From Aggregatimonas sangjinii (GTDB taxonomy: Bacteria > Bacteroidota > Bacteroidia > Flavobacteriales > Flavobacteriaceae), in the NCBI RefSeq assembly GCF_005943945.1, contig NZ_CP040710.1, positions 2,773,501 through 2,837,500 on the forward strand: a stretch of 64,000 bases of DNA, in the 5' to 3' direction. The number at the start of each line of letters is the position of its first letter. The stretch's first letter is position 1. This document shows positions 50,148 to 53,598 of this stretch, one piece after another. Position numbers and translations under genes: made by a program. Below the pieces are notes generated by a model. It made no database searches. It was given only the letters and a program-made list of their open reading frames with translations, and was not told the origin of the DNA.

Positions 50148-51518
50148 CTACTCCATTGCTATTAATTTTTTGGTCAAATAATCGAATCGAATATACAACA
50201 TAATGGCCGATGCCGTAAGACCGGTCAACAAGCCGATCCATATGCCGGTGCTTCCCAATTCTGTATGCAATCCCAGGTAATACGATACGGGAAACCCGAT
50301 GGCCCAATAGGCGATAAAGGTCATGAGTGTCGGTATTTTCACATCTTGCAGTCCCCGAAGGGCTCCCAGGACCACCACCTGAATCCCGTCCGAAATCTGA
50401 AAAAAGGCAGCGACCAACAGCAGTTCCGCAGCCAGCACGATCACTTCATTATTGTCCGCCATATTCGCGAGGTCGTTCACATCCAAATATAAGGTAGGAA
50501 ACCAATGCCGACCCCATAAAAACAAAGCTGCAAAAACAATCTCGATCAATAGCGTCAGCAGAAAAATGGACTTCCCGATACGCCGTAACTCGGGAAAGTT
50601 GGTTAGCCCTTTTTGGTTACCCACCCGTATCATGGCGGCCACCCCAAGACCCATTCCGAACATAAAGGTCATGCTACTAAGGTTCAAGGCGATTTGGTTC
50701 GCCGCTTGGGCATTCTTCCCCAACACCCCGCTCAACCAAATGGCCGCGGTAAAAATCGCCACCTCGAAAAACATCTGTAGGGCTGACGGGAAACCCAAAC
50801 CGATTATTTTGTGCATCACCTTTTTCTGAATCTCCTTAAAATTGAAATTCGTAACATAGTCCGAAAACTTCTTTTTACTTTTCAGCAAATACCACAGATA
50901 CACGACCATGATGATACGGGAAACCAAGGTGCCTATGGCAGCCCCCACAATACCCATTTTAGGAAACCCGAAGGATCCGAAAATCAGCAGGTAGTTCAAC
51001 ACGACATTGATTACATTGGCCAAGATCGTAGCATACATCGGGTATTTGGTCTGTGAGAGACCTTCGGAAAACTGTTTGAACGCCTGAAAGATGATCAAGG
51101 GCACCAAGGAAAATGCGACCAAATCGAGATAGGGCATAGCCAATACCACCACTTCGGCAGGCTGCCGCATATGATACATAAGTGGTTTGCAAAGTAGGAT
51201 GATACCGAAAAGTGTAATACCTAAAATGGTACACAGCACCAGACCATGCTTTAAGGCGCTTTTGCCGTTCGCTTTATTTCCTGCCCCATCGGCCTCGGCA
51301 ACCAAGGGCGTAATGGCGGTTGAAAAACCGATACCGAGCGACATCGCAATGAATACAAAACTATTCCCCAAAGAAACCGCGGCCAGTTCTGCCGTACCCA
51401 AACGCCCGACCATGAGATTATCGGCAAAGGCAACAAAGGTATGCCCCAACATACCCATGATTACGGGAACGGCAAGTTTGGTGTTGTACTTAAATTCTTT
51501 GGTGTATTTTTCTAACAA
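50148..51518 (-). CDS. MATE family multidrug/sodium exporter
   Basis: 456 residues, 12 membrane helices in two MatE halves. The first half has GHTFVAFADNLMVGRLGTAELAA, typical of NorM-like MATE proteins (written here as GHTFVAFADNLMVG plus RLGTAELAA). Exports cationic compounds using a Na+ or H+ gradient. The next upstream gene (51546-52622) ends 27 bases before its start, so both may share a transcript. Confidence 0.92.
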   Translation of the reverse strand: MLEKYTKEFKYNTKLAVPVIMGMLGHTFVAFADNLMVGRLGTAELAAVSLGNSFVFIAMSLGIGFSTAITPLVAEADGAGNKANGKSALKHGLVLCTILGITLFGIILLCKPLMYHMRQPAEVVVLAMPYLDLVAFSLVPLIIFQAFKQFSEGLSQTKYPMYATILANVINVVLNYLLIFGSFGFPKMGIVGAAIGTLVSRIIMVVYLWYLLKSKKKFSDYVTNFNFKEIQKKVMHKIIGLGFPSALQMFFEVAIFTAAIWLSGVLGKNAQAANQIALNLSSMTFMFGMGLGVAAMIRVGNQKGLTNFPELRRIGKSIFLLTLLIEIVFAALFLWGRHWFPTLYLDVNDLANMADNNEVIVLAAELLLVAAFFQISDGIQVVVLGALRGLQDVKIPTLMTFIAYWAIGFPVSYYLGLHTELGSTGIWIGLLTGLTASAIMLYIRFDYLTKKLIAME

Positions 51519-51545: not shown

Positions 51546-52622
51546 TTAAAATTTACGGTCGATAAGCTGTTTCATGCTCACATCCTTATAATTACGCAGT
51601 ACGAAATCGAGACCCAAATCTACGATCTGCCCCATTTTAGTACATTTTTTGAAATTCTTATCCAAAGTAAATTTATAAAGCTCCGCTTTTAACATATCGA
51701 CATTGGCCTTGACCGAAATTGTATCCTTTTTACAAATGTTGCGCAGTTTTTTAATTCGGTTTCCGGAACTTCCGATACGCTTGGCCACAATAGAGCGTTC
51801 CTCTACCTTGTATTGGTCTACGGAATAGCGTTGCAATTTGGCGCGCACCAATTCGACCATTACAAAGTTCTCTTTAAAAAACTGGGGCCGGTACACCTTG
51901 AATTTGCCTTCGAAGCATTGTTGATCGAAATCGATCGCGCGTATTTTATACACCACATGGTCAAAATCATGTGTGGGTACAATGACGTAATTGTAAGATC
52001 GCATATCGCCCAACAGGCGAATCATACAGCGCTCATTGAACTTGACGAACTCCTTGGCAAGCTGGGCCTTTTCGGATTCGGTGCATTTGGGCAAAAAATC
52101 CTTGATAAACACATCGCCTGGAATACCGGCAATATGCTCCTCGATCAAGGTATCCTTACAGACCAAGAAATTCAGGTTGTAGGGCGATAGCATATGTTCG
52201 AGTTCCAAGCCATAAATACGGGAAGCATCCGTTTTTTTGACGTAGAAATAGGTGAAATTATCGTTGAGGATATTTCTGATCTTAATGCGAAAGGGCTTTG
52301 AGTTCCCAAAGGTACAGTAGTCTACCGCATCAACATTCAAATAGGGATGTATGCTATCGCTACCATCGGAATGTAGTATGGAATACACTTGTTTAAGGCT
52401 CACGTCGATTTCTTGCCGCTCGAACTCCGAATAATACACCCTGACCCAGAGCGTATCCTCTTCATTGGCGTCATATACGACTACCGAGCCGGAAAACCGA
52501 AGCAGATCGTTATAAAAAATAGGTATCTCGATCTTGCGTTTGTAATGTTCCAAATACGCATCCAAGCTCTCATTGACCGGATAGGCCGGCTTTTTCTTCG
52601 ACATTAATTTTTCTTCGGACAT
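51546..52622 (-). CDS. Uncharacterised protein with protein-kinase-like motifs
   Basis: 358 residues, cytoplasmic, no named domain known to me. Motifs occur in the order of a protein-kinase or aminoglycoside-kinase fold: YFYVKKTDA (K129/K130, beta-3 Lys position) then ELEHML (E140/E142, helix C), hinge-like LIEEHIAGIPGD (160-170), catalytic-loop-like GDMRSYNYVIV with D206 and N211 at HRDxxxxN spacing, and AIDFDQQ (D231) at the DFG position. A C-terminal helical lobe follows. No glycine-rich loop is obvious. The kinase reading is inference. Confidence 0.75.
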   Translation of the reverse strand: MSEEKLMSKKKPAYPVNESLDAYLEHYKRKIEIPIFYNDLLRFSGSVVVYDANEEDTLWVRVYYSEFERQEIDVSLKQVYSILHSDGSDSIHPYLNVDAVDYCTFGNSKPFRIKIRNILNDNFTYFYVKKTDASRIYGLELEHMLSPYNLNFLVCKDTLIEEHIAGIPGDVFIKDFLPKCTESEKAQLAKEFVKFNERCMIRLLGDMRSYNYVIVPTHDFDHVVYKIRAIDFDQQCFEGKFKVYRPQFFKENFVMVELVRAKLQRYSVDQYKVEERSIVAKRIGSSGNRIKKLRNICKKDTISVKANVDMLKAELYKFTLDKNFKKCTKMGQIVDLGLDFVLRNYKDVSMKQLIDRKF

Positions 52623-52695: not shown

Positions 52696-53598
52696 TTGGA
52701 ACACATACTCTCGGTACAACACCTCACCAAAAAGTACGGATCGCTTACCGCAGTGAAAGATCTTTCGTTTGAAATTCAAAAAGGCAATGTGTACGGCATT
52801 CTGGGCCCGAACGGAAGCGGGAAGTCTACAACACTGGGCATTGTCCTGAACGTGGTCAACCGAACGGCGGGCGAATTTTCCTGGTTCGATGGGAGCATCG
52901 ATACCCATACCGCCCTTAAAAAAGTCGGGGCCATTATCGAACGACCTAATTTTTACCCGTATATGAGCGCGGTACAAAATCTAAAATTGGTCTGTAAGAT
53001 CAAGGAGGTAGCACATGACAAAGTCGATGAGAAGCTAGAATTGGTAGGCCTGTTAGATCGCAAGCATAGCAAATTTCGAACCTATTCCTTAGGAATGAAG
53101 CAACGTTTGGCCATCGCCTCTGCCCTTTTGAACGACCCCGAAATCCTTATTTTGGACGAACCGACCAACGGCTTAGATCCACAGGGTATTCACCAAATAC
53201 GCGAAATCATCAAAAAAATCGCCTCCCAAGGCACTACCATTCTTCTGGCGTCGCATTTGTTGGACGAGGTCGAGAAAGTCTGTACGCATGTGGTGATTTT
53301 GAGAAAAGGGGAAAAACTATACTCGGGCCGCGTAGACGGGATGATCGCCACACACGGTTTCTTCGAACTGAAATCGGAACAGCAGGAAGGTTTATCGGAA
53401 TATTTGAAAAATCACTCGAGTTTTGGGGAAATCAAGGCCGAAAACGGAATCCTTACCGCCTTTCTGAAGGAAGAAATGAGTGCCGAGGAATTGAATAAAA
53501 CGCTCTTTGAAAAGGGCATCTTCCTTTCCCATTTGGTCAAACGAAAGGAAAGTCTTGAAGAGCAGTTCTTAACCTTGACCAAAAACCAAGCAAACTAG
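52696..53598 (+). CDS. ABC transporter ATPase (BcrA-like)
   Basis: 300 residues from TTG at 52696. Walker A GPNGSGKST (37-45), signature YSLGMKQRLAIA, Walker B LILDEPTNGLDP and H-loop ASHLLDE. The C-terminal extension of about 80 residues is typical of BcrA/DrrA-type exporters. Coupled with the ABC-2 permease starting 5 bases after its stop. Confidence 0.92.
   Translation: MEHILSVQHLTKKYGSLTAVKDLSFEIQKGNVYGILGPNGSGKSTTLGIVLNVVNRTAGEFSWFDGSIDTHTALKKVGAIIERPNFYPYMSAVQNLKLVCKIKEVAHDKVDEKLELVGLLDRKHSKFRTYSLGMKQRLAIASALLNDPEILILDEPTNGLDPQGIHQIREIIKKIASQGTTILLASHLLDEVEKVCTHVVILRKGEKLYSGRVDGMIATHGFFELKSEQQEGLSEYLKNHSSFGEIKAENGILTAFLKEEMSAEELNKTLFEKGIFLSHLVKRKESLEEQFLTLTKNQAN

Follow-up and report, generated by a model that had tools for sequence, protein, structure and literature searches.

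The PI3K/PI4K/PIKK kinases (PF00454; VPS34, PI4KB, Tel1 and mTOR among them, here PIK) carry a beta3 motif of the form K-x-x-[DE]-D-L-R-[QK]-[DE], together with DRH and DFG motifs, and several of their P-loops have a proline in the turn before beta2. The SCO1664 family (TIGR03843) is distantly similar to the PI3/4-kinases. Among kinase-like proteins more generally, KINtaro comprises 72 families, of which 32 are new (PMC10870513). One kinase-like family, DUF2252 (PF10009), is described as having its two lobes in flipped order, and another, Lani_1194, is present in Flavobacteriales; 94% of the Lani_1194 homologues also have a methyltransferase domain, and an arginine is the likely equivalent of the beta3 lysine (PMC9758233). 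In Actinobacteria, SCO1664 is reported to be invariably closely linked to mshC, the mycothiol ligase gene (PMC4255298).

Here we describe a protein of 358 residues from Aggregatimonas sangjinii, encoded in a stretch of 64,000 nucleotides (NZ_CP040710.1, positions 2,773,501 to 2,837,500 of the forward strand; hereafter the window, numbered from its first letter). A preliminary description, made from the sequence alone, had recognized in it an ordered set of kinase-like motifs. We find that it represents what is very probably an undescribed kinase-fold family, new relative to the libraries searched (Pfam, NCBIfam, PHROGs, PADLOC and PDB sequences). A literature search returned no paper evidently describing this family, and an earlier description may exist. 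In two papers on bacillithiol (PMC6282198, PMC12719100), the word 'kinase' is absent from the main text.

Results

A conserved gene under purifying selection

The gene and its immediate neighbours lie in the window as follows.

51546..52622 (stop codon included), minus strand: gene for the kinase-fold protein, 358 aa; open reading frame with ATG start, supported by homologues, purifying selection and the predicted model
50148..51518, minus strand: MATE family efflux transporter, 27 bp downstream of the gene; TIGR00797 over cut-off
52696..53598, plus strand: ABC transporter ATP-binding subunit, divergent and adjacent upstream

The gene was found in 34 of the 60 genomes searched, its own included. 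When the window copy was paired with eight congeneric copies (the tenth congeneric copy, L007, was left out), synonymous sites were near saturation (pS 0.73-0.88) and non-synonymous change was small (pN 0.08-0.11), and this contrast is strong purifying selection. Because the frame recurs in 34/60 genomes and pN lies far below pS, it is a real gene and no chance frame.

A set of 230 loci was then assembled, 229 of which matched the family and 226 of which were full-length; one locus (L222) gave no match, and a partial copy (L230) and two remnants (L223 and L224) were dropped. Reduction of the full-length sequences to less than 82% identity left 106 non-redundant rows, which constitute the family alignment. 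In this alignment 32 of the 358 columns are invariant, including C103, N107, P110, R112, K129, D132, R135, E161, H163 and G166 in the first half of the protein and D206, N211, D231, F232, D233, Q234, Y244 and N252 further on. The presence of K129, D206, N211 and D231 together among these 32 columns has a chance of about 5e-5 for four random columns, and the same four residues are identical in all 226 full-length copies, duplicates included.

A confident model with kinase topology

With the 106-row alignment, AlphaFold2 produced a model with a mean pLDDT of 94.0 and a pTM of 0.90; with 22 close sequences, the pLDDT was 57.6. The order of elements in the N-lobe of the confident model is strands 95-103, 111-117 and 122-130 (which holds K129), helix 133-145, strands 152-155 and 158-162, and a hinge. 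After the hinge come helices 169-179 and 182-202, a catalytic loop at 203-211, strands 212-219 and 222-229, the D231-F-D motif and helices to the end. The predicted protein is thus bilobal in the manner of the PKL fold, with an N-lobe beta-sheet and alpha-C helix, a hinge and a helical C-lobe, and it has the beta3 lysine, alpha-C glutamate, catalytic aspartate, asparagine at +5 and DFG-position metal aspartate that mark PKL proteins. The earlier suggestion of a kinase-like fold, against which a predicted structure lacking a bilobal kinase core would have spoken, is therefore upheld by a model of high confidence, judged by the order of its secondary structure, and on the strength of that model the family very likely has the PKL fold.

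Comparison of the model with known structures pointed in the same direction. Foldseek against the PDB gave 122 matches at E ≤ 0.001, and every one of the best 50 was a kinase or a pseudokinase (E from 4.6e-5, probability 0.97-1.00), although the alignments of these 50 had TM scores, by query length, of only 0.22-0.31 and an rmsd of 13-16 Å. The top matches were Hanks-type, Eph receptors and the JH2 domain of JAK2. After re-ranking with VIA-align, the best 50 rows were all PIK (Z 13.4-10.2), headed by VPS34 (7rsj) with a Z of 13.4 over 265 residues at 4.5 Å, covering model residues 18-358; Z values up to about 13 can arise for mostly helical models. As VIA-align re-ranks only the list that Foldseek supplies, APH, HipA, DUF2252 and other families absent from that list still come into consideration. 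In a library of viral structures, the matches were mostly protein kinases, with one phage PI3/4-kinase.

Active-site elements

The elements that would make up the active site map to the window as follows.

52293..52313, minus strand: beta1-beta2 turn T-F-G-N-S-K-P at the nucleotide-loop position, residues 104-110, between strands 95-103 and 111-117
52236..52238, minus strand: K129, the beta3 lysine, at the end of strand 122-130; invariant (106/106)
52188..52226, minus strand: alpha-C helix with E140 and E142, residues 133-145, a helix in the model
52119..52142, minus strand: hinge E-E-H-I-A-G-I-P, residues 161-168, after strand 158-162 and before helix 169-179
51990..52013, minus strand: catalytic loop L-G-D-M-R-S-Y-N with D206 and N211, residues 204-211, between alpha-E (182-202) and strand 212-219
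51918..51932, minus strand: DFG equivalent D-F-D-Q-Q, residues 231-235, directly after strand 222-229; D231 is the presumed metal ligand
51867..51923, minus strand: activation-loop region, residues 234-252, with Y244, P246, Q247 and N252

The residues to which the preliminary description had drawn attention (K129/K130, E140/E142, the hinge-like EEHIAG at 161-166, D206, N211, and D231 in IDFD) were all found at those numbers. It had named homologues lacking D206, N211 or D231 as the observation that would speak against it, and not one of the 106 rows lacks any of the three. Its remark that a glycine loop is not evident is correct in that the protein has no GxGxxG, but the equivalent turn between beta1 and beta2 is present and conserved: N107 and P110 are invariant, G106 is found in 101/106 rows and the invariant R112 follows just after the turn.

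In the alpha-C helix, E140 and E142 are each Glu in 104/106 rows, position 142 being Ala in one of the remaining rows and Asp in the other. The three invariant residues of the hinge are E161, H163 and G166. The DFG equivalent is invariant from D231 to Q234, with Q235 in 105/106 rows, and in the activation-loop region the invariant Y244 and N252 are accompanied by P246 (105/106) and Q247 (96/106).

Position 208 (window 51999-52001), two residues past the catalytic aspartate, is Arg in 79/106 rows and His in 27/106, and this split largely tracks taxonomy. Arginine is found in 57/57 Flavobacteriales rows and histidine in 23/23 rows of the second class described below, and other Bacteroidia have 22 Arg and 4 His. 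The catalytic loop thus ranges from G-D-M-R-S-Y-N to G-D-M-H-S-G-N, and the latter end of the range looks, by its residues, like a small-molecule-kinase pattern. The Arg/His difference may have an influence on the acceptor or on how catalysis proceeds.

Sequence comparison with kinase families

Single members and alignments gave no credible sequence match in Pfam, NCBIfam, PHROG or the PDB. The 358-aa protein matched no Pfam family and no NCBIfam family at E ≤ 10, and 22 members matched 11 Pfam families at E ≤ 10, none of them a kinase. For the 106 members (E ≤ 1), PF00069, PF00454 and PF01636 are absent from the best 25 of 48 families, and those beyond the best 25 match one member each, judging by list order. 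The leading matches were PF14926 (CFAP300; best E 1.2e-4, 5/106 members), PF21743 (best E 0.0015, 16/106) and PF12651 (RHH_3; best E 0.0018, 3/106), which are scattered and unrelated and were taken as chance matches. A PADLOC search, in which one member matched Csx19 at 0.0011 in its C-terminal helices, gave no support for a role in anti-phage defence.

A search of the host genome for known families gave four APH matches and one HipA match, no PF00454 match at E ≤ 0.01, no PF00069 (Pkinase) match at E ≤ 1e-10 and no TIGR03843 match over cut-off (one sub-threshold match, of 12.2 bits, lies in another protein). Across the phylum, PF00454 was above cut-off in 0/148 genomes, with weaker matches in five, and DUF2252 was found in 14/395 genomes and is absent from the host.

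Profiles of the entire family, of its core and of each of its two lobes (N and C) were compared, using hhalign in local mode and 37 decoy families as background, with PIK (4 and then 8 sequences), APH (20), HipA (14), Pkinase (13) and DUF2252 (1 and then 15). In no case did PIK, APH or Pkinase come first, and PIK stayed at decoy level with either set. The best alignment of the C-lobe to APH starts at the catalytic motif, with a score within the decoy range (rank 2/38). HipA (PF07804) scored 24.4 against the whole family, compared with 23.4 for the top decoy, in an alignment far out of register, in which residues 24-95 of the protein pair with another part of HipA. A single DUF2252 sequence scored 26.2 against the whole family, above all 37 decoys, through a 17-column match at the beta1 turn that was 53% identical. 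As the lobes of DUF2252 are reported to be flipped, the comparison was repeated with 15 DUF2252 sequences and also with a permuted query: the N-lobe match was gone (rank 24), the whole family ranked 2/38 and the permuted query did no better. The C-lobe now ranked first of 38 (23.6, compared with 21.7 for the best decoy), over 20 columns at G-D-x-H-x-x-N and with a probability of 6.7%. Because some thirty or more comparisons were made, we regard the first ranks of HipA and DUF2252 as marginal.

For PIK, Pkinase, APH and DUF2252 alike, the best local alignment of the C-lobe falls on the catalytic motif, a placement that is suggestive only. One DUF2252 protein (L236, of genome G586) shares S-A-D-R-I-D-Y-x-x-F-x-G-N-x-x-x-F-R with the beta1 turn (residues 96-112) and C-G-D-M-H-x-x-N with the catalytic loop (residues 200-211). 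Since profile comparison with the five kinase families gave signals that equal the decoys or barely exceed them, the protein was filed under none of these families. A phosphoinositide kinase as the default reading is likewise unsupported, as the protein does not preserve the PIK signature: of K-x-x-[DE]-D-L-R-[QK]-[DE], DRH and DFG, only the Lys, the acid at K+3 and the Arg at K+6 are found.

Distribution and inheritance

The preliminary description placed the family in Flavobacteriia, which is too narrow, as it also occurs in other orders of Bacteroidia and in one or more classes besides. When 395 genomes sampled evenly across the Bacteroidota were searched with a 22-sequence profile, 99 matched, the host included (in one, G305, the match is a remnant only). 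A search of a second class, the class around genome G088, gave matches in 61 of 195 genomes, where two matches are remnants (G451 and G460) and one is partial at a contig end (G475). A separate pattern search recovered at least 584 relatives among at least 591 pattern matches, of which the best 80 were kept; carriers among the matches listed are Maribacter, Arenibacter, Zobellia, Tenacibaculum, Winogradskyella, Allomuricauda and Pelagihabitans. No relatives were found in phage records, viral contigs or plasmid records.

The gene is nearly always single-copy. Two full matches were seen in only one genome of the 395 set (G149), and a second match in another genome (G415) was very weak, at 16.3 bits. 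One of the two G149 copies (L160 and L204) sits on a very long branch, with 2.66 changes per column, and is possibly a diverged paralogue. Short degraded remnants of the gene (L223 in G451, L222 in G460 and L224 in G305) were also observed, suggesting recent gene loss in some lineages. In a quick tree of the 106 rows, the Flavobacteriales (57 rows) and the second class (23 rows) each form one supported group, a pattern that fits what may be old, mostly vertical inheritance with losses.

Genomic neighbours in Bacteroidia

Proximity to a MATE exporter was part of the preliminary description, and it holds within the genus: after merging of loci with identical proteins, the MATE gene is adjacent in 10/10 congeneric genomes. 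In contrast, it is adjacent in 0/132 other Flavobacteriales entries. Because this adjacency is limited to the genus, it has little bearing on function, and a MATE-linked role in export was rejected. Counted in the same way, the divergent ABC ATPase gene is adjacent in 10/10 congeneric genomes and in 84/132 other Flavobacteriales entries. Neither adjacency was seen in other Bacteroidia (30 entries) or in the second class (43 entries), and no neighbour common to the whole family was seen. At five loci in other Bacteroidia (L143, L195, L198, L207 and L208), a class II aldolase-like gene, recognized by reading of its sequence (M-S-K-Y-T-A-G-V-L-Y-G...), lies 41-485 bp downstream on the same strand.

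Linkage to bshA in a second class

In the second class, the gene usually follows bshA. Among 41 genomes examined (of the 61 matching), 32 have bshA immediately upstream in the same orientation, for example at L149 and L150, with a gap of -10 to 114 bp as measured to the BLAST match. Two upstream proteins that were scanned are BshA by TIGR03999, with 576.6 and 552.5 bits (cut-off 273.7). The linkage is present in 8/10 families (f28 7/7, f44 12/13, f58 4/5, f68 3/3, f71 2/3, f40 2/2, f54 1/1 and f56 1/1) and absent from f52 (0/5) and f33 (0/1); for two of the nine bshA-negative genomes (G473 and G263), only 1.2-1.45 kb of upstream DNA was available. No bshA linkage was found among the Bacteroidia entries examined.

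Downstream, a convergent gene for a hydrolase of the MBL fold, assigned by reading of its sequence, was found at 33 loci of the second class, in about 28/41 genomes. At L149, L151 and L158, for example, it reads as glyoxalase II-like, and it is also a neighbour in several f52 genomes without an adjacent bshA. Long open frames in high-GC genomes raised the possibility of domain fusions, which was rejected at the three loci read; at two of these, bshA occupies another frame upstream, and the additional residues resemble shadow translation.

BshA is present in 380/395 genomes of the phylum and BshC in 147/148. The 99 carriers include none of the 15 BshA-negative genomes (probability 0.012, not corrected for kinship). 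As both proteins are near-universal with or without the gene, the kinase-fold protein is not needed for bacillithiol synthesis, and having the pathway is no predictor of having the gene. For the same reason, it is unlikely to replace the ligase BshC.

Discussion

The best explanation for these observations is a cytoplasmic PKL-fold enzyme with an intact active site that would phosphorylate a small molecule, a sugar or a lipid, a reading to which we assign a probability of about 0.7. Taken by itself, activity as an ATP-dependent phosphotransferase is probable, and the odds that the acceptor is something other than a protein are about even. In such an enzyme, ATP would lie between the lobes, under the turn at 104-110, its phosphates held by K129, whose partner in alpha-C would be E142 (or E140), and residues 161-168 would form the hinge. 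N211 and D231 would bind Mg2+, D206, helped by R/H208, would position the acceptor hydroxyl, and the gamma-phosphate would most likely pass to an acceptor of the kind just named, bound by the conserved stretch D-F-D-Q-Q...Y-x-P-Q...N (231-252).

That the family belongs to the PI3K/PI4K/PIKK lineage as a genuine outlier, and is hence a PIK-type lipid or protein kinase, is possible but doubtful. The re-ranked structural matches argue for it, with PIK in all of the best 50 rows and VPS34 aligned over 265 residues, as does the K-x-x-D-x-x-R formed by the invariant K129, D132 and R135, which agrees with the PIK motif at K, K+3 and K+6; the invariant proline in the turn before beta2 is a further point of agreement with several PIK P-loops. 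However, the Asp at K+4, the Gln at K+7, the DRH triplet and the Gly of DFG are not kept, and PF00454 matched neither in the host genome nor, among members of the family, in the set of 22 (E ≤ 10) or the best 25 of 48 families for the 106. Comparison with four or eight PIK sequences by hhalign did not rise above decoys, and the ranking by VIA-align was confined to Foldseek's list, so that families outside it may fit as well.

Other chemistry on the same fold also has to be weighed, since PKL proteins can AMPylate or glutamylate their targets (PMC10870513). The atypical motifs of the family (LGDM[RH] for HRD, DFD for DFG and no GxGxxG) might be expected of an AMPylase, a glutamylase or an ATP-dependent ligase, but the set of Lys, Asp, Asn and Asp is invariant and in canonical order, and for a ligase the occurrence of BshC in 147/148 genomes makes a simple substitution for that enzyme improbable; we consider such chemistry unlikely. 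A catalytically dead pseudokinase, binding only a nucleotide or a partner, would also be in keeping with several atypical motifs and with the Ala and the Asp that each replace E142 in 1/106 rows, yet the four core catalytic residues are invariant in 106/106, and loss of catalysis is accordingly very improbable. If the motifs were coincidental and the fold no kinase, the want of sequence-profile support would follow naturally. This we judge extremely unlikely in view of the confident model with kinase topology, the restriction of the best 50 PDB rows to kinases by two programs, and the invariance of the named residues, each at the right position in the secondary structure.

Read as a kinase-fold enzyme, this mostly single-copy protein represents an additional family of the bacterial PKL kinome, with best structural matches of the PI3K/PIKK type. 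It has apparently been passed on mainly by vertical descent, occurs in about a quarter of the sampled Bacteroidota and is without a model in the libraries searched. As it combines an assigned kinase fold with an intact active site, the enzyme is directly testable. The linkage to bshA is, we infer, the best lead to its function, and thiol metabolism, in the class where the gene follows bshA, is a place to look for its role; from that linkage in one class, a role connected with bacillithiol, a low-molecular-weight thiol, and its metabolism can be proposed only tentatively and is less likely than not.

Among known kinases, those of the Hanks type (PF00069) head the Foldseek matches (E from 4.6e-5, TM about 0.25), but the protein has no PF00069 match, no GxGxxG and, in place of HRD, L-G-D-M-[RH]. 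The PIK proteins (PF00454) match the structure best, along almost the full length of the model, and share with it the beta3 Lys, the acid at +3, the Arg at +6, and G-D-x-[RH]-x-x-N followed by I-D-F; unlike them, it has neither D-L-R-Q-D nor DRH, reads DFD instead of DFG and gave no Pfam match. The G-D-x-[HR]-x-x-N loop is shared with APH (PF01636), and the family's G-D-M-[RH]-x-x-N is similar to G-D-L-x-x-G-N, the form found in the Bacteroidia APH set, although no Pfam match was seen, the N-lobe is not alignable and hhalign scores fall within the decoys. Similarly, the C-G-D-x-H-x-x-N-F loop of DUF2252 resembles L-G-D-M-[RH]-x-x-N-[YF], and DUF2252 gave the best of 38 scores with the C-lobe of the present family, but the order of the lobes differs and the match is no longer than 20 columns, at a probability of 6.7%. 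Lani_1194, the other kinase-like family present in Flavobacteriales, differs in having a likely beta3 Arg where the present family has a Lys (K129).

Finally, the linkage of SCO1664 to mshC is paralleled by that of the present gene to bshA. The phylum and the thiol differ, and the likeness is one of gene linkage, no sequence relationship having been shown. We think it unlikely, but worth stating, that PI3/4-kinase-like proteins of the kinase fold have become attached twice to sugar-thiol metabolism, through the bshA-linked family in Bacteroidota and through SCO1664/mshC in Actinobacteria. If so, both would phosphorylate a metabolite of the thiol pathway or regulate thiol-dependent redox, a layer of sugar-thiol metabolism not yet described.
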